Of a stretch of DNA of 64,000 nt, positions 52,018-64,000 are shown piece by piece. Both the position numbers and the translations under genes were made by a program. Location of the stretch: NCBI RefSeq assembly GCF_009649685.1, contig NZ_WJPK01000003.1, positions 141,824 to 205,823 of the forward strand, in the 5' to 3' direction. Origin of the DNA: Flavobacteriaceae bacterium EG-1 (lineage in GTDB: Bacteria; Bacteroidota; Bacteroidia; Flavobacteriales; Flavobacteriaceae). Below the pieces are notes generated by a model. The model did no database searches. It was not told where the DNA came from and saw nothing but the letters and a program-made list of their open reading frames with translations. Every line of letters starts with the position of its first letter. Within the stretch, counting starts at the first letter, position 1.

Positions 52018-54489
52018 ATGGCAAAATACCTACAGTTACAACTTATTATTTTTTTTACATTTTCAACAGTTACCACTTACGCACAACTAAAAGGTAAAAT
52101 TATTGACGAGCAAGGATTACCCCTTGAGTACGCAACAGCGGCATTATTTAACGAAACAGATAGTTTATTAGTTACCGGAGTAGTAACCGATTTAAATGGC
52201 GCGTTTATACTTGAAAATTTAAAAAGCGGCACGTATTATTTAGAAGCCTCTTTTATAGGGTATGATATAAAGACTATATACAACATTAGTTATATAGCAA
52301 AAGCAGTCAAAAATTTAGAACCCATACAATTAACCTTAGGCAATCAATTAAACGAAGTAATTGTAAAAGGCGAACGAGCTACAGTAATTAACAAAATTGA
52401 TCGACAGGTATTTGATGCTCAAAAATTTAAGAGTGCCCTAGGGGGATCGGGTATTGATGTCATCCGAAATTTACCTTCTGTAAGTATAGATGCACAGGGA
52501 GAAATTAGTGTTCGTGGTAGTTCTGGTTTTATGGTGTTACTAAATGGTAAACCAACTCAGGGCAATGCGAGCTCACTCATGGCACAATTACCTGCCAATG
52601 CCATTAAACGTGTAGAAGTAATTACTGCACCCTCTGCAAAGTACGACCCCGAAGGAAAGGCGGGTATTATAAATATCATCACTACAAAGGGAGCAACCGA
52701 TGGTACTTACGGACAGATAAATATAAAAGGAGGCTTACCCTCTTTGGAAACTTATGATAACGATAAATACCACCAGCGTTATGGTATAGATGCTACGTAT
52801 AATATTAGAAATGAAAAATGGAATATGTCATTAGGTGCAAACTACCAAAGAAACGATTTAGGCGGAAGAAGAGAAGGCGATGTTTACACGATAATTAATG
52901 ATACGCTAACACAGTTTCCATCTACCGGAGAACGCAGTTTTGATGAAGTTAACTACAACGGCAGACTCACCGTAGATTTCACACCCGATACCACCAACAC
53001 CTTCTCGTTAGGTTTTTTTGCAGGTAAACGCAGTAAAGATCGGTTGGCAGACATTGTTTATTACAATAATACAGCAAGAACACCGGCCGATAACGAAAAT
53101 AGTTATCGCACTTTTCAATATTACAATCACAATTTAAGAATTCGAAAAAGTGATTTTGCTTTGGGAAGTTTAGACTACGAGCACATTTTTAAAAACAAAG
53201 CCCGTATCTCTACCTCTTTCTTATATGAATATACGCTTTTAGGTGGCCCTACGGTAAATCAGAATTTGGGAGAGCCAGACCGTTCAATTTTATATCAAGA
53301 TGAATACAATACTAATGACAATCCGTTAAACGGAGTTCGCTTGCAAGCAGATTATCTTTTTAAACCATTTAGGTTAGGAACATTAGAACTAGGCTATCAA
53401 TTTCGCAATTTAAATCATACTGGCGATTTTGTTTATGAGCGAAGAACAGCTTATAATGATGCGTTTGAACTAGTTCCTGAATTTTCGAGTGAGATAGATT
53501 TAAATAGAACCATACATTCGGTTTATACTCAATTTTCTGGAGAAAGCAAACAATTTAATTACGCACTAGGAGCTCGACTAGAACGTATGAACAGAACATT
53601 AGACTTACGCGACAAAGCCAATACTGTAGACACCACATACACTTATAATTTTACTAAAATATATCCATCGGCATCTTTGCAGTATGCTATAAGTGAGAAG
53701 ACGAATTTAAAAGCAGCCTACAGCAAACGAGTTGAACGTACACCTACCTTTAAAATGAATCCGTTTCCAGAGCGTGAACATTCCGAAACCCTAGAGCAAG
53801 GTGATCCTACCTTAAAACCTGAATTTATAGATTTAATTGAGTTAGGTATTACACAAAAGTTAAAAGGTGGTAATTCTATTTATGCAACAACATATTTTAG
53901 AAAAGTAGCAAACGTAGTAAACCGAGTAAATACCATTTATAATGATACCATATTAAACAGAATATATTCAAATGTAGGTTCGGCAAAAGCATTAGGGTTA
54001 GAAATTGGAGCACAACTAAAACCCACTCAAAATTGGTCTAATTTTATTGGCGCCAATGTTTACAATTATAAAATTGAAGGTTCATTCGACAAGCAACCTA
54101 TTGCCACAGATGCAACAGTATATTCGATAAATTTAAATTCAACTTACAATTTTTGGGAAAATGCATCGCTACAGTTTACTTATAATTACTTATCTGAGCG
54201 AATAACTGCGCAAGGTGAAGATTCTCGGTTTTATGCTCCGAATTTAACCTTTCAAAAATCGTTTTTAAACGATAGGCTTACCGCCACATTACAATGGCAA
54301 AATATTGATATGGGACTATTAGCTACAAACGAACAGCGCATTACTACCTATCGTCCTAATGAATTTTATACTACTACCAATTATGTTTATGAGGTAGATA
54401 TGGTATTATTAAATGTAGCGTATACCTTTAAAAATGGAAAAAACAAAGCGAAGTTTATTGACAGTGAATTTGGTAAGCGCGAGTTTTAA
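52018..54489 (+). CDS. TonB-dependent outer-membrane receptor
   Basis: This 823-residue protein has a signal peptide (cleavage near TYAQ), an N-terminal carboxypeptidase-regulatory-like domain (LKGKIIDEQGLPLEYATAAL), a plug (residues about 115-235, with GGSGIDVIRNLPSVSIDAQG and VEVITAPSAKYDPEGKAGII) and an outer-membrane beta-barrel of the family-3 type common in Bacteroidota. The substrate is not known; no SusD-like gene follows. It is convergent with the integrase gene, 38 bases away. Confidence 0.9.
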   Translation: MAKYLQLQLIIFFTFSTVTTYAQLKGKIIDEQGLPLEYATAALFNETDSLLVTGVVTDLNGAFILENLKSGTYYLEASFIGYDIKTIYNISYIAKAVKNLEPIQLTLGNQLNEVIVKGERATVINKIDRQVFDAQKFKSALGGSGIDVIRNLPSVSIDAQGEISVRGSSGFMVLLNGKPTQGNASSLMAQLPANAIKRVEVITAPSAKYDPEGKAGIINIITTKGATDGTYGQINIKGGLPSLETYDNDKYHQRYGIDATYNIRNEKWNMSLGANYQRNDLGGRREGDVYTIINDTLTQFPSTGERSFDEVNYNGRLTVDFTPDTTNTFSLGFFAGKRSKDRLADIVYYNNTARTPADNENSYRTFQYYNHNLRIRKSDFALGSLDYEHIFKNKARISTSFLYEYTLLGGPTVNQNLGEPDRSILYQDEYNTNDNPLNGVRLQADYLFKPFRLGTLELGYQFRNLNHTGDFVYERRTAYNDAFELVPEFSSEIDLNRTIHSVYTQFSGESKQFNYALGARLERMNRTLDLRDKANTVDTTYTYNFTKIYPSASLQYAISEKTNLKAAYSKRVERTPTFKMNPFPEREHSETLEQGDPTLKPEFIDLIELGITQKLKGGNSIYATTYFRKVANVVNRVNTIYNDTILNRIYSNVGSAKALGLEIGAQLKPTQNWSNFIGANVYNYKIEGSFDKQPIATDATVYSINLNSTYNFWENASLQFTYNYLSERITAQGEDSRFYAPNLTFQKSFLNDRLTATLQWQNIDMGLLATNEQRITTYRPNEFYTTTNYVYEVDMVLLNVAYTFKNGKNKAKFIDSEFGKREF

Positions 54490-54527
54490 AGTAAAAGCCT
54501 TTGGATTTTAGTTTCGCTTTTAAAAAA

Positions 54528-55595
54528 TTACAAATTATCGAGCGGACTAACAATTTTAGCCAAACTGCGCGGTGTAACCTTGGTATAAATCTGCGTGGTT
54601 TTAATAGAATTATGCCCCAGTAGTTCTTGTATAAAACGCATATCGGCCCCAGCTTCTAACAGGTGAGTCGCATAACTATGTCTAAGCCCGTGTACTCCTA
54701 TTTTCTTATATATTCTTGCCTTTCGCATTGCCCTTTTAAAAACCTGCTGTACAGACCCTTTAGAATATGCGCCCCCGTACTGCCCTTCTAACAAGTATTC
54801 TTTTGGGTGGTACGCCCTAAAATATTCGCGAAGTTCTGTAAGTAAACTACTAGGTAATGGCACATAACGGTCTTTCTTACCTTTTGCGGCCACTACCCGA
54901 ACTACCATTCTACTACTATCTATATCTTCAATCTTTAATTTTACCACTTCAGAAACACGAAGCCCCATGCCATAACACAGTTTTAGTGCCAAAAGGTGCT
55001 TGGGGTTTGTAACTTGTTTTAAAAGTCTTTTTACTTCTGCCTTACTCAGCATTTTAGGTAAGGTTATCGGTTTTTTAGGGCGCGGAATATTGAAAAACAT
55101 ACGTTCGCTATGCAACACCTTTTCAAAATAGAATTTGATACCGTTAATTTTTCCATTTATTTTTCGTTCGCTCATCTGTTCTTCATTTACACAATAGAGA
55201 AAATAGTCCTTCAGTTTTTTAGGCGTTAAATCTTCAACAGGATAATCTTTTATCATTTTAAGTAGGTGAGCGAATTCGGCTAAATAAATACGTTTTGTAT
55301 TTTCGCTATAAGCCTTTAGTTGAAGTTGTTCATTCATGGCGAGGTACGCTTGCCTATTTATTGGGTGCAGCTCTAGCAATGCCTTAGTCGTAAATTTGTT
55401 CTTTTTTAATCCAATCTTTTCTCTTATTACCGGCAAATCGGGCAGGTACCAAGCCTTTTTAGTTTGACTCCATTTAACAGATGGAAATCGCGCTCGTAGC
55501 GCATCTTTTAAACTCAAATTATAAGGAAAATAAATTAAGATTACATTTTCATTTCGGTGTACTGCTGTTGTGAAGGTATATTGGGTAAAATCCAT
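54528..55595 (-). CDS. Tyrosine recombinase, likely integrase of an integron-like element
   Basis: The ATG at 55595 gives 355 residues (MDFTQYTFTTAVHRNENVIL). All tyrosine-recombinase residues are present: R213 in GMGLRVSEVVKL, K238 in the beta-hairpin, H302 and R305 in VHGLRHSYATHLLEAG, H328 in LLGHNSIKTT and nucleophile Y337. Residues 81-170 form the SAM-like core-binding domain. Residues about 10-56 are an extra N-terminal domain with FPYNLSLKDALRARFPSVKW and KKAWYLP, resembling the HARP pattern (inference). Only about 55 residues separate the hairpin from the HxxR box, so the insertion that marks IntI appears absent. The end reads SPLDNL, as in many IntI and Xer proteins. It is divergent from the cassette array, in the position of intI. 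Confidence 0.92.
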   Translation of the reverse strand: MDFTQYTFTTAVHRNENVILIYFPYNLSLKDALRARFPSVKWSQTKKAWYLPDLPVIREKIGLKKNKFTTKALLELHPINRQAYLAMNEQLQLKAYSENTKRIYLAEFAHLLKMIKDYPVEDLTPKKLKDYFLYCVNEEQMSERKINGKINGIKFYFEKVLHSERMFFNIPRPKKPITLPKMLSKAEVKRLLKQVTNPKHLLALKLCYGMGLRVSEVVKLKIEDIDSSRMVVRVVAAKGKKDRYVPLPSSLLTELREYFRAYHPKEYLLEGQYGGAYSKGSVQQVFKRAMRKARIYKKIGVHGLRHSYATHLLEAGADMRFIQELLGHNSIKTTQIYTKVTPRSLAKIVSPLDNL

Positions 55596-55605
55596 ATGAT
55601 CATTC

Positions 55606-55642
55606 TGTATATCAATTTTTAAATATACGATTTTGATATACA
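55606..55642 (-). promoter_or_regulatory. Inverted repeat upstream of the integrase gene
   Basis: TGTATATCAA (55606-55615) and TTGATATACA (55633-55642) form a perfect 10-bp inverted repeat with a 17-base spacer, starting 11 bases upstream of the integrase ATG. On the minus strand a TATATTTA near-match to the -7 box lies in the spacer. It could be a repressor operator controlling integrase expression. Confidence 0.45.
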
Positions 55643-55727
55643 AAATGAACAATACCCTTAAAATTACTTAGGGTCTATTTATATTGGGGTACTATAAATA
55701 AATTGTATTTTAGTGTTGAATACAAAA

Positions 55728-55753
55728 CGTGCACATATTTATGTGTTACCCAC
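55728..55753 (+). other. attI-like insertion site at the head of the array
   Basis: The first cassette begins at G55745^TTACCCAC, identified because GTTACCCAC (55745-55753) is the exact reverse complement of the core GTGGGTAAC at the end of that cassette (57204-57212). Immediately before it, CACAT (55732-55736) and ATGTG (55741-55745) form an inverted pair with a four-base spacer, as recombinase half-sites might. Unlike the inner junctions (ACCG^TT) this one reads ATGTG^TT, as expected if the left part belongs to a fixed platform site. Confidence 0.6.
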
Positions 55754-55863
55754 AAGCTAAAATCCAACCACACATTTTAGCACTTTCGGTTTTTTCCGAC
55801 ACACAAATTCAACGCTATAAAAACCAAAAGAGCTAAAATTTTCCCAACGCTTGAAATTTATGT

Positions 55864-55903
55864 ATTTAAGTATTTGCTTAAATAAGAAATAAACGTAACT
55901 TTG
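55864..55903 (+). promoter_or_regulatory. Promoter and ArsR-type operator of the metal cassette
   Basis: TAACTTTG at 55896-55903 matches the -7 consensus, with TTTG (55873-55876) as -33 element at a spacing of 19 bases. The -33 box lies in the spacer of an inverted repeat ATTTAAG (55864-55870) and CTTAAAT (55877-55883), placed where an ArsR-family repressor would block transcription. The ATG of the ArsR gene follows at 55908. Confidence 0.65.
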
Positions 55904-55907
55904 TTTT

Positions 55908-56282
55908 ATGGAAAATAATTCTTGCATAAGACAACAAGCCGATATTGAACAAATAAACCGTTGCAAAGACACAGTTTCGGAATTAAACGAATCGTTCGAC
56001 TATTTGGCAAATGGACTTTCATTAGTCGGAAATAGCGTTCGACTGAAAATACTTTACCTACTCTTTGAGGAAAAAAGACTTTGTGTTTGTGATTTGAGCG
56101 ACATTCTCGGAATGAATATTTCCGCCATTTCTCAACATTTAAGGAAAATGAAAGACCGAAATCTTTTAGAAACAGAAAGAGATGCTCAAACGATTTTTTA
56201 TTCACTTACGGCTGAATACAAAAAATTACTAAACCCATTTTTTGAGATACTTGATAAAAACAAAATTTTAGAAACGATATGA
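55908..56282 (+). CDS. ArsR/SmtB-family metalloregulator
   Basis: This 124-residue winged-helix repressor should bind DNA until a metal or metalloid releases it. The metal-site motif RLCVCDLSDIL gives C59 and C61 in helix 3, as in ArsR and related mercury sensors; further cysteines C6 and C19 may take part. DNA contact is through MNISAISQHLRKMKDRNLLE. It is the first gene of the first cassette, has its own promoter and palindromic operator, and overlaps the MerTP gene by four bases. Regulation by mercury is inferred from the neighbour. Confidence 0.9.
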   Translation: MENNSCIRQQADIEQINRCKDTVSELNESFDYLANGLSLVGNSVRLKILYLLFEEKRLCVCDLSDILGMNISAISQHLRKMKDRNLLETERDAQTIFYSLTAEYKKLLNPFFEILDKNKILETI

Positions 56283-56878
56283 AAAGTGAAAACAAATTAA
56301 TTGGCGCAGGTTTGTTAACTGCAATTACAGCTTCATTATGCTGTATTACACCTGTTTTGGCTTTAATCGCAGGAACAAGCGGAATTGCTTCTGCATTTTC
56401 TTGGATTGAACCTTTTAGACCCTATTTAATCGGACTGACAATTTTAGTTCTTGGTTTTGCTTGGTATCAAAAACTTAAACCTCAAAAAGAAATAGACTGT
56501 GATTGTGAGACTGACGAAAAACCAAAATTTATTCAATCAAAAAAGTTTTTAGCAATTGTAACCGTATTTGCAATTGTAATGTTGGCTTTTCCATACTATT
56601 CAGGAATATTTTACCCAAATACAGAAAAGCAAATAATCGTAGTTGACAAATCGGACATTAAAACGACTGAATTTAAAATAAGCGGAATGACTTGTGCGAG
56701 TTGCGAAGAACACGTAAATCACGAAGTAAATAAGCTCAACGGAATTGTGAACTCAAAAGCGTCTTACGAAAATGGAAATGCAATCGTTGAATTTGACAAA
56801 ACCAAAACCAACGAAACAGAAATCGAGAATGCAATAAACTCAACAGGTTATAAAGTAACCGATAAAAAAGAAAACTAA
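56279..56878 (+). CDS. merTP: Mercuric transport protein MerTP
   Basis: This 199-residue membrane protein fuses a MerT-like transporter and a MerP-like heavy-metal domain. The MerT part has the C21-C22 pair in the first membrane segment (ITASLCCITPVLALIAG) and C74/C76 in the cytoplasmic loop; a third segment spans about residues 90-110. The C-terminal HMA domain carries C139 and C142 in ISGMTCASCEEHV. It should bring Hg(II) into the cell. No mercuric reductase gene is in this cassette, so the reduction step must be supplied elsewhere or the metal differs. Its stop overlaps the next start. Confidence 0.88.
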   Translation: MKSENKLIGAGLLTAITASLCCITPVLALIAGTSGIASAFSWIEPFRPYLIGLTILVLGFAWYQKLKPQKEIDCDCETDEKPKFIQSKKFLAIVTVFAIVMLAFPYYSGIFYPNTEKQIIVVDKSDIKTTEFKISGMTCASCEEHVNHEVNKLNGIVNSKASYENGNAIVEFDKTKTNETEIENAINSTGYKVTDKKEN

Positions 56879-57084
56879 TGGAAGTCAAATTAAAATCAGA
56901 AATCACTTGTCCTAATTGCGGACATAAAAAAGTAGAAGATATGCCAACAAACGCTTGTCAATTTTTCTACGAATGCGAGAATTGTAAAACGGTTTTGAAA
57001 CCAAAAGAAGGAGATTGCTGTGTTTATTGCTCATACGGAACAGTTGCTTGTCCACCTATTCAAGAAAATAAAAGTTGTTGTTAA
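56878..57084 (+). CDS. GDCCVxC domain-containing protein
   Basis: This 68-residue cysteine-rich protein has two CxxC knuckles (CPNC at residue 11 and CENC at residue 33), the name-giving GDCCVYC motif at residues 45-51 and a terminal CC. Ten cysteines in 68 residues suggest binding of a soft metal. Such proteins often follow MerTP genes in Bacteroidota; their role (metal chaperone or scavenger) is not established. Its start overlaps the MerTP stop by one base, so the three genes form one operon. Confidence 0.88.
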   Translation: MEVKLKSEITCPNCGHKKVEDMPTNACQFFYECENCKTVLKPKEGDCCVYCSYGTVACPPIQENKSCC

Positions 57085-57087
57085 AAA

Positions 57088-57174
57088 GCCAACGCAAAAA
57101 GCCATACACATTTGCAATTCGCACCAGCCAACACACAAACCCAAAATTGCAAAAGAGTATGTCTTTGCCAACGC
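57088..57174. repeat. Hairpin element flanked by GCCAACGC direct repeats
   Basis: CATACACATTTGCAATT (57103-57119) and AATTGCAAAAGAGTATG (57145-57161) pair in 15 of 17 positions around a 25-base loop, extended by GCAAA/TTTGC outside. Identical GCCAACGC copies lie at 57088-57095 and 57167-57174. It may be a terminator, or the remnant of a different attC-like site inside the first cassette. Confidence 0.5.
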
Positions 57175-57203
57175 TGAAAACCAAGCTGAACGGAATAAAG
57201 CCA

Positions 57204-57339
57204 GTGGGTAACAACGTATATAAAAAATAGCGGTTTAAGTGCTTAATTTAAAGTGATTTTTATAAATTTAACGTCAGTACCAAACCGAAAAGTTAGTGTG
57301 TAAAATCCGCTACTTTTCATATACAAGACCGTTAGGGGC
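57204..57339 (+). repeat. attC-like site 1
   Basis: Core GTGGGTAAC (57204-57212), spacer AAC, left arm GTATATAAAAAATAGCGG (57216-57233), a 73-base centre, right arm CCGCTACTTTTCATATAC (57307-57324), spacer AAGACC and junction G57331^TTAGGGGC. The arms pair in 16 of 18 positions; the two mismatches (positions 7 and 12) are A opposite C on the top strand. The centre shares a segment of about 20 bases (CAGTAC/ACAAACCGAAAAGT type) with site 3. Confidence 0.82.
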
Positions 57340-57361
57340 AAGCTAAAACAACATCCCGTAA

Positions 57362-59068
57362 ATGAAAGCATCTTTTTTAGGACACGGACTTGATACGGGA
57401 GACAAAAATAATGTCGGAAAGCAACTCGTAGCGTCCTTAGAAAGCAAAAAATATAAAATCTTCAATGGCTTCGTTGCTTTTGCATCGATATCAGGAGTTA
57501 AGATGCTTGAACCTTACCTTAAGAAAGTTAAATCACATTACGACCATATTAGATTTTTCATTGGAGTTGATAACAGAGGGACATCAAAAGAAGCTTTAGA
57601 ATCCTTACTTAACCAAGGTATTGAAACTTACATTTATTTTGATGAAAGGAATTATGTTACCTATCACCCCAAATTATTCTTATTTGAAGGCCCAACTTTT
57701 AGCAGAGTAATAATTGGCTCTTCTAACCTTACCAGCTCAGGTATTAAGACAAATTTAGAAGCATCTGTTCAGTTAGATTTTCGTTCAAAAACAGGAAAAC
57801 AAGGCATAAAATTTATCAATGAAATCAAAGAATATTATTCTGAATTATTAGACTTATCATCTGCAAAACTTAGATTACTCACAAAAGAATTGTTACAAGA
57901 ACTGATAAAGAAGAATTTACTTTTCAATCAATTTGGAGAGCAAGGAAAGGTTAAAGAACCAAAAAATAATGATGGGGAAAATCAGCAGGCTGGACAAACC
58001 AATATTGAAGTCACGGATTATGATATAGAAACTGGGTTTGAGCAAGATGACACATCTTCTAGTGATAGAGACACTAAAAAAACATTTGGTAAAAATGATT
58101 ATGATAAGTTTGAAACACTAATTGAAAGATATGTTCAATATAAAAAGAATGTACGTCCTTCCGGAATGGTAAGCAAACATACTGAAGATAGAGAATTGTT
58201 TTATTGGTATCTAAAAATGCATGCTATATATAGACATGGAGCAGATTCATTTCCACATGATATCTTCCAAAAATTATTAGAGGTAGACTTCCCTTTTGAC
58301 GGAATTGGCCGAAAACGTAAGCGATTAATAAAATGGAATAAAGACTTTCAAAAAGTTGTAGAATATAAGAAAAAGGTTGACCCCAAAAGTGATTACACCT
58401 ATGTCCCGCAATTTAAAGACAAAAACAATAAATATTACGAAGTAGGTAGATGGTGTGCTCACCAAAAGCAAAGAAGAAAAGGAAATAAAAACTATGGTGC
58501 TGATTGGACACAATTCGAAGAAGAAAGAATGGAGTCAATCAATTTTTTATGGGACTCTTCGGGCATAAATAGTAGACCGAAAGATGATAGTTGGACAGAT
58601 AGTTTGGTGCTTTTAGAAGAATATTATAGTAAGAAGAAGAATTATAAGAGTGTACCTCCGCAATCAACTTATATTGGACATTGGTTAAATGACCAAATGA
58701 CTTTAAAATTGAGACAAGACAGAGAGAATATAACTAATTTAATAAGTGAAATTAGAGAAGAAATGCTAGGAACCTTACTAGCCAAAAATGGAGTAGAATG
58801 GGAATGGGAGAAACAGAAACATCGCGAAAGCATAGAGGATAAAATCAGTAGTTGGCGTTTTGTAGAAGAATTAAAAAACACCAACAAGATTAAAGAATTC
58901 AGAGAAAAGAGTCCAAAAATTTTGAAGAAACATAGAGATAATGTTGCTCAATTAAGAAGTCAAAGTAAAAAATGGCATAATGAAAAAAATAGGTGGAAAC
59001 TTAGATTGTTGGACAAAGCTGAGTTTCCTTATGAAAAACAAAAAAAGCCAGCCCCTAACAATGCCTAA
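57362..59068 (+). CDS. PLD-family nuclease with helicase-associated-like repeats
   Basis: This 568-residue protein is alone in the second cassette. Residues 1-165 form a phospholipase D-like nuclease domain with H102-x-K104 in YHPKLFLFEG and N122 in IIGSSNLTSSGI; a single HxK set implies a dimer, as in BfiI- and NgoFVII-type restriction enzymes. After a polar linker (about 195-245), residues about 250-480 hold repeated segments with the look of helicase-associated (HA) domains, such as YYEVGRWCAHQKQRRKGNK and STYIGHWLNDQMTLKLRQDR. The last residues are encoded inside attC-like site 2. A role in phage or plasmid defence is plausible by inference. Its start is only 30 bases from the cassette edge. 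Confidence 0.8.
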   Translation: MKASFLGHGLDTGDKNNVGKQLVASLESKKYKIFNGFVAFASISGVKMLEPYLKKVKSHYDHIRFFIGVDNRGTSKEALESLLNQGIETYIYFDERNYVTYHPKLFLFEGPTFSRVIIGSSNLTSSGIKTNLEASVQLDFRSKTGKQGIKFINEIKEYYSELLDLSSAKLRLLTKELLQELIKKNLLFNQFGEQGKVKEPKNNDGENQQAGQTNIEVTDYDIETGFEQDDTSSSDRDTKKTFGKNDYDKFETLIERYVQYKKNVRPSGMVSKHTEDRELFYWYLKMHAIYRHGADSFPHDIFQKLLEVDFPFDGIGRKRKRLIKWNKDFQKVVEYKKKVDPKSDYTYVPQFKDKNNKYYEVGRWCAHQKQRRKGNKNYGADWTQFEEERMESINFLWDSSGINSRPKDDSWTDSLVLLEEYYSKKKNYKSVPPQSTYIGHWLNDQMTLKLRQDRENITNLISEIREEMLGTLLAKNGVEWEWEKQKHRESIEDKISSWRFVEELKNTNKIKEFREKSPKILKKHRDNVAQLRSQSKKWHNEKNRWKLRLLDKAEFPYEKQKKPAPNNA

Positions 59069-59249
59069 ACGTAATGCGGGCTTTAGGGCTGAATCGAAAG
59101 GTCTGTGTATATTTATGTAGTCGCTAAATCTTATGGATTTAGCTTTGGACGAGAAAAATAAAAACTAAACCAAAAGCTTTAGCTTCGTGCGTAGACGGAA
59201 ACGAAAAGTTTCCTTGCCCCGCACTACGCTTAGCCGAACCGTTGTAAAC
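59051..59249 (+). repeat. attC-like site 2 (divergent sequence, same architecture)
   Basis: Core GCCCCTAAC (59051-59059), spacer AAT, left arm GCCTAAACGTAATGCGGG (59063-59080), right arm CCCGCACTACGCTTAGCC (59218-59235), spacer GAACC and junction G59241^TTGTAAAC. The arms pair in 15 of 18 positions with mismatches at 2, 7 and 12. The 137-base centre holds two perfect small hairpins: GCTAAATC/GATTTAGC (59123-59143) and GGAAAC/GTTTCC (59197-59213). The core overlaps the last codons of the PLD gene. Confidence 0.82.
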
Positions 59250-59253
59250 AATT

Positions 59254-59691
59254 ATGAAGAAACTTTTTGCAATCATTTTAACATTTTTATTTTTTTCGTG
59301 TTCCGAGAATAAAACAGATTGTGAAGAATACTCTTCCGCATATTGGACAACAACAATGTTTGGAAAACCTCATAACACGAGAATTGAGGGAGAAAATATC
59401 ACTATCCGAAAAGCTTTTGCAGAAATTAGAGAATCAGAAACTCAAATTGAACCAAGAAACGGATTTATAACATTACGTCTGAATATAGACAAGTATGGAA
59501 ATTACTGCAACCAAGAAAATTTTCAAATAAATACAAAATACCAACCTATCCAATTTAATAATGGCGAGCTAATTAAACAACTTGAAAACGTTTCAAAAAA
59601 TTTAAGCGGTTGGAAAAATGATACGGAAACGAAAACGTATTACTTAATTAGGCTGACAATTAAAAACGGACGAATTGAAGAAATTTTTTAA
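59254..59691 (+). CDS. Hypothetical lipoprotein
   Basis: The 145-residue protein has a lipoprotein signal (MKKLFAIILTFLFFSCSENK, C16). The rest, with TEPRNG-like turns and a segment LRLNIDKYGNYCNQENFQIN, resembles the TonB C-terminal-like or energy-transducer-like domains of short Bacteroidota lipoproteins, but I cannot assign it firmly. The ATG lies only 12 bases after the cassette junction, so its promoter must be outside the cassette or within the preceding repeat. The TPR gene overlaps its 3' end by 17 bases. Confidence 0.75.
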   Translation: MKKLFAIILTFLFFSCSENKTDCEEYSSAYWTTTMFGKPHNTRIEGENITIRKAFAEIRESETQIEPRNGFITLRLNIDKYGNYCNQENFQINTKYQPIQFNNGELIKQLENVSKNLSGWKNDTETKTYYLIRLTIKNGRIEEIF

Positions 59692-60445
59692 AATAGTTGG
59701 AATCATAATTGGAATAATTTTGATTTTTATAATCGGAATTGCGATTTATGGTCATTTCAAGGGTAAAGAGATGATTGAGAATGCTAAAGAAAGTTCTCGA
59801 AGAATTATAAACTTTGAATCCAAAAATAGTGACGAATATATGGAGTATTCGGTTGTGAAATTTAACAAAGCTGGAGACTTTCATACAGGGTTTATCTATC
59901 TTAATAAAGCAGTAGAATTAAATCCAAGTTCACATTTAGGTTATAGAGGTTGGATTAGATTAAGAAAAATACGTGATTACAATAACGCCTTAATGGATTT
60001 TGACCGACTTGATAGCTTGACACCTAATTTTGTTGATGCACCTTGGGGAGAAGATATTGACTTTTTACGTGGAGAATGTTATTTCGGAAAAAAGAACTAC
60101 CAAAAAGCAATTGAATTATTTAATCGAAATATTAAAAACCAAAAAGAGGATTGGGCAGATATACATTCTTTTGTATATCTCGGACTTTGTGAATACGAAC
60201 TTGGAAATTACGAAAAATCAATTGCTGAATTTCAACGTGCATTAAAACAGTCAGAAAATATACCTGAATCCTACTTTGGAATGGCAAAAGCCTACCAAAA
60301 ACTTGGGGAAATAGAAAAAGCGAAAGACAATATTGTAAAAGCAGAACAAACTATTCAATACAAAAGAGATGATATTTACAATGAATTTTTGAATGAAATA
60401 TATCTTTCAGAAATTTTGGAATTTAAACATACTCTGAATAAATAA
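59675..60445 (+). CDS. Membrane-anchored TPR protein
   Basis: The TTG at 59675 gives 256 residues with one N-terminal membrane segment (IVGIIIGIILIFIIGIAIYG) followed by TPR repeats, for example SHLGYRGWIRLRKIRDYNNA and ESYFGMAKAYQKLGEIEKAK. The bulk should face the periplasm. It overlaps the lipoprotein gene by 17 bases in a different frame, so both are likely translated together as a two-gene cassette. Its function is unknown; the pair might form an envelope complex. Confidence 0.8.
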   Translation: MKKFFKIVGIIIGIILIFIIGIAIYGHFKGKEMIENAKESSRRIINFESKNSDEYMEYSVVKFNKAGDFHTGFIYLNKAVELNPSSHLGYRGWIRLRKIRDYNNALMDFDRLDSLTPNFVDAPWGEDIDFLRGECYFGKKNYQKAIELFNRNIKNQKEDWADIHSFVYLGLCEYELGNYEKSIAEFQRALKQSENIPESYFGMAKAYQKLGEIEKAKDNIVKAEQTIQYKRDDIYNEFLNEIYLSEILEFKHTLNK

Positions 60446-60446
60446 C

Positions 60447-60579
60447 TGTTTACAACATTGTATAAAAATAATAGCGGTTTATTCGCTAAAACGAAATGAA
60501 TTACACAAAGCTAACATCAGTAACAAACCGAAAAGTAAGTGGGTGAACACCGCTACTATTCTTATACGTTACCGTTGGC
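60447..60579 (+). repeat. attC-like site 3
   Basis: Core TGTTTACAAC (60447-60456), spacer ATT, left arm GTATAAAAATAATAGCGG (60460-60477), right arm CCGCTACTATTCTTATAC (60550-60567), spacer GTTACC and junction G60574^TTGGC. The arms pair in 16 of 18 positions with mismatches at 7 and 12, again A opposite C. It starts two bases after the TPR stop. Confidence 0.82.
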
Positions 60580-60620
60580 ATTCATTAACCTAGATAAGAA
60601 AATTTCAAAACACAATAAAA

Positions 60621-61892
60621 ATGAAATATTATAGAAACCTCTTGCTAATACTATTGACAGTTATTTTTATTACCTCCTGTGAGGATGCTAAAAAGGATAT
60701 CGAATACGGAAAAGCGACAAAAGAATTAAAAGCACTATTAGATAGTGATGCCAATCTAAAATCTTTACTTGAGTCTTCACTCCAAAAAGCTAAAGAAATT
60801 AATCCAGACAGAAATACAAATCCTGCTCAAACCCTAGATGAGTATTATGAGTTTATAACTTGGACCGAAACAACTATGCCTTGGGCAATAGTTAAAAAGG
60901 AAGAATATCCGGAAATATTCGATAATATTTTCCAAGGACTTTGTGCGTTCTATTTCTTAATTGATCAGCCACTTTCGGAGCTGGAAGGAAAAGGATTAGT
61001 TAATAACTCCCTCCAGTATTATGAACCATTTGCCAAATGGCTGGTCACTTTTAGCAATTCATGGGGTGCTTATCTAGACACTGAAGATTCTTGGAATGAA
61101 GAAAATTATCATATGGCATTAAACGATCCAAATTTCGGTCTACAAAATGATTGGTATGAAGATCCATCAAATTGGAAGACTTTTAACCAATTCTTTGCCC
61201 GTTATTTAAAATCTCCAGACATGCGTCCTATTGCAAGTCCTGATGATGAGTCTAAAGTATCTTCATTTGCCGACTCACAACCAATGGGTGTTTGGGAAAT
61301 AGACGATAATTCAAATCTCATTGGAAAAGACGGCGTTCCTGTAAAGTCTGCTACGCTAAAATCCATATCTAAACTTATTGGCGATGAAAGTGAATACAAT
61401 GATGCATTTGCAAACGGTACATTTACTCATTCCTTTTTAAACGTTAACGACTATCACAGATATCACTTTCCATTAGGTGGTACTATAAAAGAAGCCAGAA
61501 TAATTCAGGGTATCAATCCAACAGGTGGTCAACTGTGGTGGGACAAGGAAAACAACAGGTATGCATTTAATCCAAGTGCTAAAACGGGATGGCAATCTGT
61601 TGAGACAAGGGGATGCGTTATTCTGGAAACTGCAGAATATGGATTGGTCGCTTTAATGCCTATAGGTATGGCTGTTGTCGGTTCAGTAAATTTTGAAGAA
61701 AATGTTACTCCCGGTACAACTGTGAAAAAAGGTGACATGCTTGGCCATTTTGCATTCGGTGGATCTGATTTTATAATGATTTTTCAAAATAGTGTTTCAT
61801 TCACATTGGACGCTCCAATGCAAGAAGATGGGAACTCTTACAAGCATATGTTAATGGGTGAGCAATTAGGAATATTATCTAAACAGAAATAA
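60621..61892 (+). CDS. Phosphatidylserine decarboxylase-like lipoprotein
   Basis: This 423-residue protein has a lipoprotein signal (MKYYRNLLLILLTVIFITSC, C20). The middle part FNQFFARYLKSPDMRPIASP and DYHRYHFPLGGTIKEARIIQ, and the C-terminal GHFAFGGSDFIMIFQ, match the phosphatidylserine decarboxylase family; the LGST self-cleavage motif is FGGS here, with S382 as the residue that would form the pyruvoyl group. Classical PSD is an inner-membrane enzyme, so a lipid-anchored exported form is unusual. An N-terminal helical region of about 150 residues may add a substrate domain (phophatidylserine decarboxylase-associated type). It is the only gene of its cassette. Confidence 0.75.
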   Translation: MKYYRNLLLILLTVIFITSCEDAKKDIEYGKATKELKALLDSDANLKSLLESSLQKAKEINPDRNTNPAQTLDEYYEFITWTETTMPWAIVKKEEYPEIFDNIFQGLCAFYFLIDQPLSELEGKGLVNNSLQYYEPFAKWLVTFSNSWGAYLDTEDSWNEENYHMALNDPNFGLQNDWYEDPSNWKTFNQFFARYLKSPDMRPIASPDDESKVSSFADSQPMGVWEIDDNSNLIGKDGVPVKSATLKSISKLIGDESEYNDAFANGTFTHSFLNVNDYHRYHFPLGGTIKEARIIQGINPTGGQLWWDKENNRYAFNPSAKTGWQSVETRGCVILETAEYGLVALMPIGMAVVGSVNFEENVTPGTTVKKGDMLGHFAFGGSDFIMIFQNSVSFTLDAPMQEDGNSYKHMLMGEQLGILSKQK

Positions 61893-61898
61893 CGAAAC

Positions 61899-62031
61899 GC
61901 CAACAATGTATATAAAAAATAGGCGGGATAGTAGTAAAATCAAGCGTTGTAGTTCCTAAAAGCTTTTGTCGTATCTTGAAAGTGAATTGCTACGAAATCG
62001 CCTACTTTTTATATACTAACCGTTGTAACAC
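61899..62031 (+). repeat. attC-like site 4
   Basis: Core GCCAAC (61899-61904), spacer AAT, left arm GTATATAAAAAATAGGCG (61908-61925), right arm CGCCTACTTTTTATATAC (61999-62016), spacer TAACC and junction G62022^TTGTAACAC. The arms pair in 17 of 18 positions; the one mismatch is at position 12, A opposite C. The core begins six bases after the preceding stop codon. Confidence 0.82.
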
Positions 62032-62051
62032 ATTAAAACGAAACTTAAAGA

Positions 62052-62534
62052 ATGAGATATTTATTAATACTTACAATGATTACATTTATTTCATGTAATA
62101 GGAATGCAAAAAATACGAATTCACAGAGCAGTACAATTAACATAGAAAAGGAAAACATTAGAAAAGCTATAATTAATAATTACGATTTCTTTGACAAAAA
62201 TGACCTTTCTGATAGCCTTACATTTAATCGTTACAAAACTCTTTTTTCAGACTCTTTTGTACTTGTACCAAGTGAAGGAAAACCTTTGTCAGACAAAGAA
62301 ACAATTCTAGAAGAATGGCGGGTATTATTTAAAGAAAACAAAGCAGTTTTTGACCTTACAATTAATCGAATAGAAGTATCTGGAAACCTTGCATATGCAC
62401 TTTATCATTATGATGAAAAATTGACGAATATTAAAACTAATGAGCTTTATTTTGAAGTCACTCAATCTGCAATTGCCATTTTAAGAAAAGATGAATTAGG
62501 AGAATGGAAATTTGAAGCTTTGAGATATAATTAA
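62052..62534 (+). CDS. NTF2-like (DUF4440-type) lipoprotein
   Basis: The 160-residue protein has a lipoprotein signal (MRYLLILTMITFISCNRNAK, C15). The body fits the SnoaL/DUF4440 NTF2-like fold: RKAIINNYDFFDKNDLSDSL, TILEEWRVLFKENKAVFDLT and a final GEWKFEALRYN strand. It may bind a small molecule or act as a helper for the hydrolase gene that follows after 62 bases. The ATG is 29 bases from the cassette edge. Confidence 0.78.
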   Translation: MRYLLILTMITFISCNRNAKNTNSQSSTINIEKENIRKAIINNYDFFDKNDLSDSLTFNRYKTLFSDSFVLVPSEGKPLSDKETILEEWRVLFKENKAVFDLTINRIEVSGNLAYALYHYDEKLTNIKTNELYFEVTQSAIAILRKDELGEWKFEALRYN

Positions 62535-62596
62535 AAATAAATTTTGAACTTAATCAAATTTAATAACTATACAATATTAGAAAACCACTAAAAATT

Positions 62597-63619
62597 ATGA
62601 ATATAACATTTATGGAGAAAATTTTAGTGATTGTTTTTTTTCTAAATCTATCGGCTTGTAGTAATAATAAACCAAATAAAACCTCTATAACTAAAACGCC
62701 AGAAATTGAGATGTATAGAAATATAGAATTCAAATCGCAAGGTGCCACACTCAGAGGAAGATTGTATTTACCCGAAAATAAATCAAAAAAAAGACCTGTT
62801 GTTATAATGGCTCACGGATTTACAACTACAATCAATGGAATGACTGCCGATAAATATGCTGAAAAATTTAGAGAGGCAGGGTTTGCTGCATTATTATATG
62901 ACCACAGAAATTTTGGTATTAGTGATGGCGAGCCACGACAAGAAATTAATTTTTGGGTTCAATCCAGAGGTTATATTGATGGTATTGATTTTGTAATCAC
63001 TCAACCAGAAATTGACATTTCAAAAATTGCAATTTGGGGAGCGAGTTTAAGCGCACGAGAGGCGTTTCTCGTTGGTTCAGTCGATGAAAGAGTAAAGGCA
63101 ATAATAAATCAAATTCCTGCTTATGGAGACAATTTCCCTATCGAAGACAAAGATGGTCTGTTATATTCGTTTGCTAAAAAGACTGTACTAACCGACAAAA
63201 TATTAGATTTACCACATACGGTTACAGGACAGATGCCAATCGTTTCATCAGACCAAATAGGTACGCCTTCTGCACTTTCAGAAATAACCGCTTATCGTTG
63301 GTTCATTGAATATGGTGGGCGTTATGATACAAATTGGAAGAATATAGTTTCATTTTCTAATACAAAAATTCCAGAACAATTTCACATCGGTCAATGTGCA
63401 GAACATTTAAAAGCACCTATTCTTATGGTTGTAGCAACTAACGATGAAATGGAAGGTGCAAATAATGAAGTTACAAACAGAATATTTGAGATGATTAAAA
63501 AACCAAAAGAATTAGTTGAAGTAGATGGTGGACATTTCGGACTATTGCATTATCCTAGTTCAATATTTAATAAATCAAGTAAAGTACAAGTTGATTATCT
63601 AAATAGGTATTTTAAGTAA
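62597..63619 (+). CDS. Alpha/beta-hydrolase (lipoprotein)
   Basis: The 340-residue protein has a lipobox near residue 22 (FLNLSACSNN). It shows the alpha/beta-hydrolase pattern: VVIMAHGFTTTINGMTADKY, LLYDHRNFGISDGEPRQEIN, then the nucleophile elbow AIWGASLSAREAFLVG, with the serine in GASLS, and GGHFGLLHYP with the histidine. It resembles dienelactone-hydrolase-like or DltD-like enzymes of the YcjY group. The ATG at 62612 is an alternative start. It ends a cassette whose attC-like site is truncated. Confidence 0.82.
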   Translation: MNITFMEKILVIVFFLNLSACSNNKPNKTSITKTPEIEMYRNIEFKSQGATLRGRLYLPENKSKKRPVVIMAHGFTTTINGMTADKYAEKFREAGFAALLYDHRNFGISDGEPRQEINFWVQSRGYIDGIDFVITQPEIDISKIAIWGASLSAREAFLVGSVDERVKAIINQIPAYGDNFPIEDKDGLLYSFAKKTVLTDKILDLPHTVTGQMPIVSSDQIGTPSALSEITAYRWFIEYGGRYDTNWKNIVSFSNTKIPEQFHIGQCAEHLKAPILMVVATNDEMEGANNEVTNRIFEMIKKPKELVEVDGGHFGLLHYPSSIFNKSSKVQVDYLNRYFK

Positions 63620-63629
63620 GGACAATAAC

Positions 63630-63672
63630 GTGTTACAACAATGTATAAAAATAATAGCGGTTTAATCGCTAA
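63630..63672 (+). repeat. Truncated attC-like site 5
   Basis: Core GTGTTACAAC (63630-63639), spacer AAT and the left arm GTATAAAAATAATAGCGG (63643-63660, identical to that of site 3) are present, followed by TTTAATCGCTAA, which matches the start of the centre of site 3. The right arm and ACCG^TT junction are missing; the sequence changes near 63672 into a degraded gene. Confidence 0.75.
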
Positions 63673-63683
63673 TTGGTACGGGT

Positions 63684-64000
63684 TTAAAACCTTTTTGCAA
63701 ATGTGATAAACATGACTCTCTTCAGTCGGAATTTGAGCAATCCGATTTGGTAATGATTGGCGATGTATTAGGGAAATCTGTGATATCAAAAAACGTGAGA
63801 GACGAAAATGGTAAAAAGCAAAATTTACTTCTAACACAGTACCAAATAAAAGTATATAAGTCATACAAAGGCATTAAAGGGACAAAATCATTTTTCTGTT
63901 AACAATGACGGATATGGCCTCATGCGGGTTAAAACTTGAAACTAATCACCGCTATACCATTTTCGGAAACAAGGGGACCTTTCTTTCATCGGACTTGGAA
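63684..64000 (+). pseudogene. TIMP/NTR-like protein fragment, frameshifted
   Basis: Reading from 63696 gives CKCDKHDSLQSEFEQSDLVM, then VYKSYKGIKGTKSFF and a stop at about 63899; in a frame shifted by two the sequence continues TMTDMASCGLKLETNHRYTI to the window end. This matches the cysteine-rich NTR/TIMP-like proteins of Bacteroidota, whose mature part starts at the CxC. No signal peptide or start codon precedes it: the sequence joins directly to the truncated attC-like site. It therefore looks like a broken gene, although its 3' end is outside the window. Confidence 0.65.

Follow-up and report, generated by a model that had tools for sequence, protein, structure and literature searches.

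The integrase of integrons, IntI, carries an insertion (I2) that docks the extrahelical bases of the attC site and stops the second strand exchange (PMC7790495), and this insertion has been called essential for integron function (PMC8138268). I2 and the extrahelical attC bases are regarded as co-evolved and a 'chicken-egg' question about I2 and attC has been stated (PMC4792948); both the co-evolution and the essential role are in print (PMC7790495, PMC4792948, PMC8138268; these and the other papers are cited here from partial texts). XerCD is found to recombine the CTX phage site, the stem of which mimics double-stranded DNA and has no extrahelical bases (PMC4792948). Programs for integron detection search for the IntI insertion (PMC9668308), and IntegronFinder 2.0 has recorded one complete Bacteroidetes integron, in Salinibacter, an earlier study having recorded integrases without sites (PMC9024848). 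In our study, a stretch of 64,000 nucleotides from Flavobacteriaceae bacterium EG-1 (the window; G000:C4:141824-205823 of its own genome, G000) has been analysed, in which a tyrosine recombinase gene stands beside a row of gene cassettes with attC-like sites. In the open-licence literature, as far as its accessible text goes and with subscription papers and preprints outside the search, no description of such arrays in Flavobacteriaceae or Bacteroidia was found.

The most probable explanation of this locus, to which we give a probability of about 80%, is an integron-type platform in which a recombinase without the IntI insertion captures and excises cassettes at attC-like sites folded as single-stranded hairpins. 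Judged from its anatomy in the sequence, the system works like an integron, and it is not a member by the IntI definition because the insertion was tested for and is absent. Catalytic residues, an adjacent attI-like site, complementary cassette ends, hairpins biased to the bottom strand and a whole cassette common to genera are directly seen. The features of the window are given below.

54528-55595, minus strand: tyrosine recombinase, 355 amino acids from its ATG
55597-55651, no strand: inverted repeat lying between the recombinase start and the attI-like site, core TGTATATCAA at 55606-55615 and TTGATATACA at 55633-55642
55731-55747, plus strand: attI-like site, where crossover would fall between G55745 and T55746
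55746-57331, plus strand: cassette 1, with an ArsR regulator (55908-56282), MerTP (56279-56878), a GDCCVxC protein (56878-57084) and site 1
57210-57333, plus strand: attC-like site 1
57332-59241, plus strand: cassette 2, with a PLD-like (PLDc) / helicase-associated protein (57362-59068) and site 2
59057-59243, plus strand: attC-like site 2, of the long type, 187 bp
59242-60574, plus strand: cassette 3, with a lipoprotein-like open reading frame (ORF; 59254-59691), a TPR protein (59675-60445) and site 3
60454-60576, plus strand: attC-like site 3
60575-62022, plus strand: cassette 4, with a phosphatidylserine decarboxylase-family protein (60621-61892) and site 4
61902-62024, plus strand: attC-like site 4
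62023-63672, plus strand: cassette 5, with a DUF4440 protein (62052-62534), an alpha/beta hydrolase (62597-63619) and the 5' half of a site
63637-63672, plus strand: attC-like site 5, truncated to its 5' half; the next site, L037:1169-1292, is about 0.7 kb further, past the window

The recombinase is composed of an N-terminal domain of about 60 amino acids, a SAM-like core-binding domain, a catalytic domain and a C-terminal SPLDNL, and its listed ORF reaches 55652 through an upstream TTG start. The catalytic residues R213, K238, H302, R305, H328 and Y337 are invariant columns among 40 aligned sequences. The IntI insertion is absent, with 63 residues between the anchors in all 11 aligned orthologs against 105 in all 24 IntI; the profile test of the insertion gave matches split at 178/241, and the recombinases of a broader clade (57-64 residues, 31 rows) are also without it. 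TIGR02249 and NF040815 scored the protein under their cut-offs (202.8 bits against 265 and 207.8 bits against 220, respectively). Its closest protein, from 'Aurantibacter sp.', is 94% identical, which makes the host a probable member of that genus. In the structure-similarity comparison XerA and XerH are the next closest folds, many other tyrosine recombinases being among the matches. The host has separate XerC- and XerD-like genes on G000:C1, which the tree places on a different branch, and the window recombinase is thereby ruled out as the host XerC or XerD (seven of the 99 protein rows, namely a duplicate locus, a duplicate record, three short or truncated proteins and two phage-type integrases, were excluded from this tree, and no archaeal XerA sequence was included in it). 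Residues 1-60 (window 55416-55595, minus strand) show a beta-beta-alpha-beta-beta-alpha order and contain the motif W-S-x(3)-(K/R)-x-W-Y-L-P-D, which is strongly conserved. This N-terminal piece gave no match in a Pfam search, and no PDB structure matched its predicted fold within E 0.001; a likeness to HARP domains is unsupported by both searches.

The attI-like site lies about 150 bp from the recombinase ATG, and in 10 of the 12 genomes with this ortholog (own genome included) a G^TT is found 147-155 bp from the ATG; in G075 the distance is 171 bp. A palindrome-like stretch precedes G^TT, and 10 of the 12 genomes score at least 13/17 against 3% of shuffles, a comparison weakened by the consensus being derived from the very sequences scored with it. 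The own genome has a second attI-like copy (L197:6528-6695; G000:C1, about 384528-384695), 91% identical over 168 bases, and the two copies agree up to ...TTTATGTG^TT and then diverge into different first cassettes. Of the 32 broader-clade loci tried, 21 have a first cassette whose start, as predicted by end pairing, lies 26-111 bp past the recombinase stop. In 12 of those 21 loci this start is preceded by a dyad of 22-27 bp (arms of 10-13 bp), the end of which stands 4-7 bases ahead of G^TT; 1.9% of shuffles have dyad arms of at least 8. These dyads (L080-L100, after the recombinase stop), perfect or near-perfect, differ in sequence between genomes with the pairing kept, and two in G236 are identical. 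An inverted repeat similar to that at 55597-55651 (core TGTATATCA...TGATATACA or alike, at least 9 pairs, spacers 12-36) stands at the same place in 11 of the 12 ortholog genomes; it is possibly an operator or an extra recombinase site.

The cassettes themselves appear to move as units. The opening 9-10 bases of a cassette, counted from GTT, are the reverse complement of its closing bases, counted to AAC, with the start/end pairs GTTACCCAC / GTGGGTAAC, GTTAGGGGC / GCCCCTAAC, GTTGTAAACA / TGTTTACAAC and GTTGTAACAC / GTGTTACAAC; cassette 4 has kept only six complementary end bases. The start of cassette 1 is placed at 55746 because its opening bases complement its end over 9 nt. Consecutive site pairs at ortholog and broader-clade loci (all named and control loci excluded) number 192, and in 119 of them the two cassette ends complement each other at 7 or more of 8 positions; of re-paired ends, 0.93% do so. 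In 140 of the 158 pairs with at least six matches, the top strand has A.C at the eighth position, and therefore 7 of 8 is the usual maximum. Further, cassette 1 was found in another genus, in G044, with 97.2% identity over 1586/1586 bases, whereas the two recombinases are 62% identical. Binned by 100 bases, identity rises from 0.49 immediately ahead of 55746 to 0.90-1.0 as far as 57333 and then falls to 0.42 and 0.27. Another cassette of the own genome (L037:2947-3863) is present in G168 (88% over 915/917 bases), and thus two whole cassettes are common to different genera with breaks at the cassette ends. G168 carries broader-clade recombinases and yet shares a cassette with the window's genome, because of which both kinds of platform seem, from these sequences, to draw on one cassette pool. 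The attI sites differ by subclade, while cassettes are common to subclades.

The sites stand between genes and run from AAC to CCGTT with paired arms. A covariance model was trained on 25 sites from the window and nine other genomes, and 10 of its 14 consensus pairs are preserved through two-sided changes in one or more of the 25. The bottom strand is the more stable in 251 of 279 sites, with two ties (strand counts, 281 sites in all, exclude duplicate loci; L145, L150, L158 and L161, which equal G085, G006, G132 and G075, are included in the totals of 229, 295 and 297 of other counts, and L148 equals G011). On the bottom strand, 177 of the 281 sites have 14 or more consecutive Watson-Crick or G.T pairs without a break, and on the top strand none has. 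At each of two stem positions, 24 of the 25 sites have A.C on the top strand and hence G.T on the bottom strand.

Such sites accompany the recombinase across the family. The family sample consisted of 249 genomes, one per species, without strain pairs within species. It holds 11 full-length orthologs with 59-69% identity, below which identity drops to 48% save for a 59% fragment in G043; contigs with orthologs are named Hyunsoonleella, Winogradskyella, Maribacter, Pseudozobellia and others. A model-free scan for paired arms was the first to detect sites next to the ortholog genes. Covariance-model matches there are partly by construction, as the model was trained on some of those sites, and all site counts include the sites used to build the models. 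Sites were found beside the recombinase in 11 of the 12 ortholog genomes, the exception being G011 with the gene 1.7 kb from a contig end; G050 gave a weak model match at the recombinase and 167 bits with the long-site profile. At the named ortholog loci, all 44 sites are on the divergent side (four of these contigs are shared with orthologs already counted). For the broader clade, 33 listed recombinase matches in single-contig genomes (two contigs in G150; 24 genomes), with the orthologs set aside, were searched over a 20-kb stretch each and compared with 33 control stretches 1 Mb away at a threshold of E 0.01. All 33 loci have sites against two of the 33 controls, with 210 site matches against 18 in equal control length. 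The two positive controls hold rows of 13 and 5 sites, and a second profile search added control L122, with a single truncated long site, and L139, with weak partial matches. In this clade 167 of 173 profile-called sites lie downstream of the recombinase gene in the same direction; the other six are all in L089, the recombinase of which the tree places next to the window clade (89/80, long branch).

Family-wide, at least one site is found in 223 of the 249 genomes, at most 14 matches being scored per genome, and among 20 of the 26 site-less genomes that were listed one (G062) has a recombinase match. Class-wide, sites occur in 97 of 295 genomes (E 1e-6) and the recombinase in 143 of 295 (E 1e-45), as separate counts in which proximity is not considered. 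A plasmid of Chryseobacterium sp. SNU WT5 (L208, NZ_CP041688.1) carries a recombinase of 41% identity with four sites, the cassette ends being linked, which suggests that the platform can also be mobile. The cargo of this plasmid array includes a group II intron reverse transcriptase and an IS110 transposase.

The first-pass annotation had named the adjacency of attC-like sites to recombinase homologues as a check beforehand, and these ortholog and broader-clade loci bear it out. It had also considered that the sites may occur independently of a recombinase. This holds in so far as recombinase-free clusters exist, in the own genome on C1 and in G184, as do clusters of attC sites lacking an integron-integrase (CALINs) in known integrons. 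As for its check on the presence and absence of cassettes, examined here between genera, the two shared whole cassettes and the two attI-like copies with different first cassettes speak in its favour.

In the mechanism proposed here, the window recombinase, and not another enzyme, would perform the cassette recombination. It would act on the folded bottom strand with a cut between G and TT, and the junction would then be resolved by replication, because the docking of extrahelical bases falls to a part of IntI that the enzyme is without. As most bottom-strand stems form an uninterrupted duplex of Watson-Crick and G.T pairs, the hairpin may be handled by the enzyme like any double-stranded DNA, which is what XerCD is stated to do with the folded site of the CTX phage (PMC4792948, partial text). 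Strand choice would come from the nearly fixed A.C mismatches of the top strand, which are G.T pairs on the bottom strand, replacing extrahelical bases or besides them. This would be a third arrangement, in which the insertion is absent, the hairpins resemble duplex DNA in most cases and nearly fixed G.T pairs determine the strand.

A number of observations weigh against this explanation. The evidence is from sequence only and recombination was not observed. The top strand folds better in 26 of the 279 sites, and 104 of the 281 bottom-strand stems are interrupted before 14 pairs. With duplicates included, 82 of 110 interrupted stems have no second run, and the printed examples include an asymmetric internal loop, which could hold an extrahelical base. 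In G011 no GTT follows the attI-like stretch, and a motif search for a cassette promoter (Pc) near attI gave results no better than shuffles. Two Chryseobacterium loci with 54% identity gave one and zero sites, and the Marinimicrobia locus L171 gave none. Moreover, a six-site cluster follows the orphan attI-like copy on the own C1, where the 20 kb retrieved contain no recombinase gene, and G184, of the same genus, has 26 sites and no clade recombinase in the stretches fetched. The window recombinase may serve the orphan C1 site in trans. One cluster of G184, of 13 sites, lies at L193-L195 (G184:C1:2980000-3031408), also without a clade recombinase in the fetched stretch.

Among the alternatives, the one that survives best is that the same recombinase uses double-stranded sites in an ordinary two-step Xer-type reaction and the hairpin is incidental. 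IntI halts the second strand exchange with its insertion (PMC7790495, partial text), and the absence of this insertion would fit such a reaction, as would the XerA and XerH folds and the twelve broader-clade attI sites, the dyads of which resemble double-stranded binding sites. Double-stranded sites, however, need no bottom-strand bias of the kind seen both in stability and in long stems (177 against 0), and the stems are kept by paired changes in sites spanning 120-190 bp. We consider this alternative unlikely.

It is very improbable that the array is a CALIN, with canonical attC sites that are either relics or substrates of a true IntI encoded elsewhere and acting in trans, and with the neighbouring recombinase a bystander. 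Recombinase-free clusters do exist, and canonical IntI is present in the phylum, in 86 of 296 genomes at E 1e-45. However, all but one of those 86 genomes are outside the class (the number of class members among the 296 is not stated), and no canonical IntI above the cut-off was found in 13 genomes, namely the 12 ortholog genomes and G184. The site model gave no site at E 0.01 at eight IntI loci, and its matches in 6 of 24 IntI genomes lie on contigs other than that of the listed IntI, or about 2 Mb off (G473). A quick, unvalidated scan for canonical attC at the eight IntI loci found none, from which no conclusion is drawn. The window array differs from a CALIN by the recombinase beside it, which the attI-like site adjoins. 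Finally, ordinary dispersed palindromic repeats or terminators in a chance row of genes deserve hardly any credence, numerous as the sites are in most family genomes, as the right flank of a site pairs with the left flank of the next, which already contradicts them, a whole cassette common to genera breaks at the predicted base, and sites are concentrated beside recombinases relative to the controls.

The integron-type platform with its insertion-less recombinase may extend well beyond this locus. On balance we incline, with limited confidence, to an integron class across Bacteroidia, the recombinases of which never had I2 or have lost it and still recombine folded single-stranded attC sites. 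Such a class could be a surviving intermediate of, or an independent solution to, the co-evolution of hairpin sites and I2.

The array starts at 55746 and continues for about 29 kb to at least G000:C4:227021, past the window end, with at least 18 sites: 17 covariance-model matches on G000:C4 from 199033 to 227021 and the site at 59057 from another search. The own genome has 21 sites in total at E 0.01 in the search that recovers this site. An Rfam scan of window positions 54000-64000 gave no match. The first-pass annotation had correctly described a tyrosine recombinase gene facing away from a row of cassette genes, all on one strand, with four complete sites and one truncated site of the attC plan and with cargo unrelated from cassette to cassette. 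The genes assigned here, from the ArsR/MerTP/GDCCVxC set to the DUF4440 protein with its hydrolase, bear this out. Its statement that the recombinase has no IntI insertion agrees with the anchor spacing, and its proposal of a separate system or distant integron class is supported, the system being filed here as an integron class with its own recombinase. The site length of 133-199 bp given there is reached only with flanks, the measured length from AAC to GTT being 123-187 bp. The five head-to-tail cassettes are present, though their number is an effect of the window end; the continuation of the array, and the start of cassette 1 at G^TT 55745/55746, had been missed.

Between 63637 and 64345 (window end and L037), site 5 is without its 3' half, and cassette 5 may have been joined there to another cassette that has decayed. 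Beyond the window, ten ORFs were scanned at L037:1332-16782: a cyclophilin-type protein, Imm11, two DUF6090 proteins and a predicted beta-lactamase-family protein (PF00144), besides short-chain dehydrogenase, alpha/beta hydrolase, DUF418, CAAX-protease-like and hexapeptide-repeat proteins.

This study has revealed a cassette system with most other integron marks built on an insertion-less recombinase, and integron searches may miss this gene store. If the proposed mechanism is true, a large reservoir of mobile genes has gone unnoticed, sites of this kind being present in 223 of 249 species of one family, and the I2/attC question (PMC4792948, partial text) would become testable with a natural enzyme without I2.

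In comparison with the known systems, the sedentary chromosomal integron, for example that of Vibrio cholerae, is alike in its recombinase gene, adjacent attI with insertion at G^TT, head-to-tail cassettes on one strand, hairpin sites with the bottom strand favoured, and integrase-free clusters. The cassette ends, complementary over 9-11 nt in known integrons (PMC2727003, in its available part), are alike here. On the other hand, the window recombinase has no IntI insertion, is 42 residues shorter between the anchors and has an extra N-terminal domain; most bottom-strand stems are uninterrupted; the sites are of 120-190 bp against 57-142 nt in the accessible text of PMC2727003; and the broader-clade recombinase gene lies upstream of its array in the same direction. 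In this last respect the broader clade resembles the 'atypical' integrons of Treponema, in which the integrase has the cassette direction, whereas those are described with intI genes in the portion of PMC3607928 at hand and the recombinase here lacks the IntI insertion. The integron-like subgroup of Smyshlyaev et al. 2021 (PMC8138268) comprises simple tyrosine recombinases, IntI included, and the available text of that paper mentions no arrays beside insertion-less members. XerA, XerC and XerD differ from the window recombinase in the SPLD tail, which it possesses and which is absent from the three Xer rows aligned.

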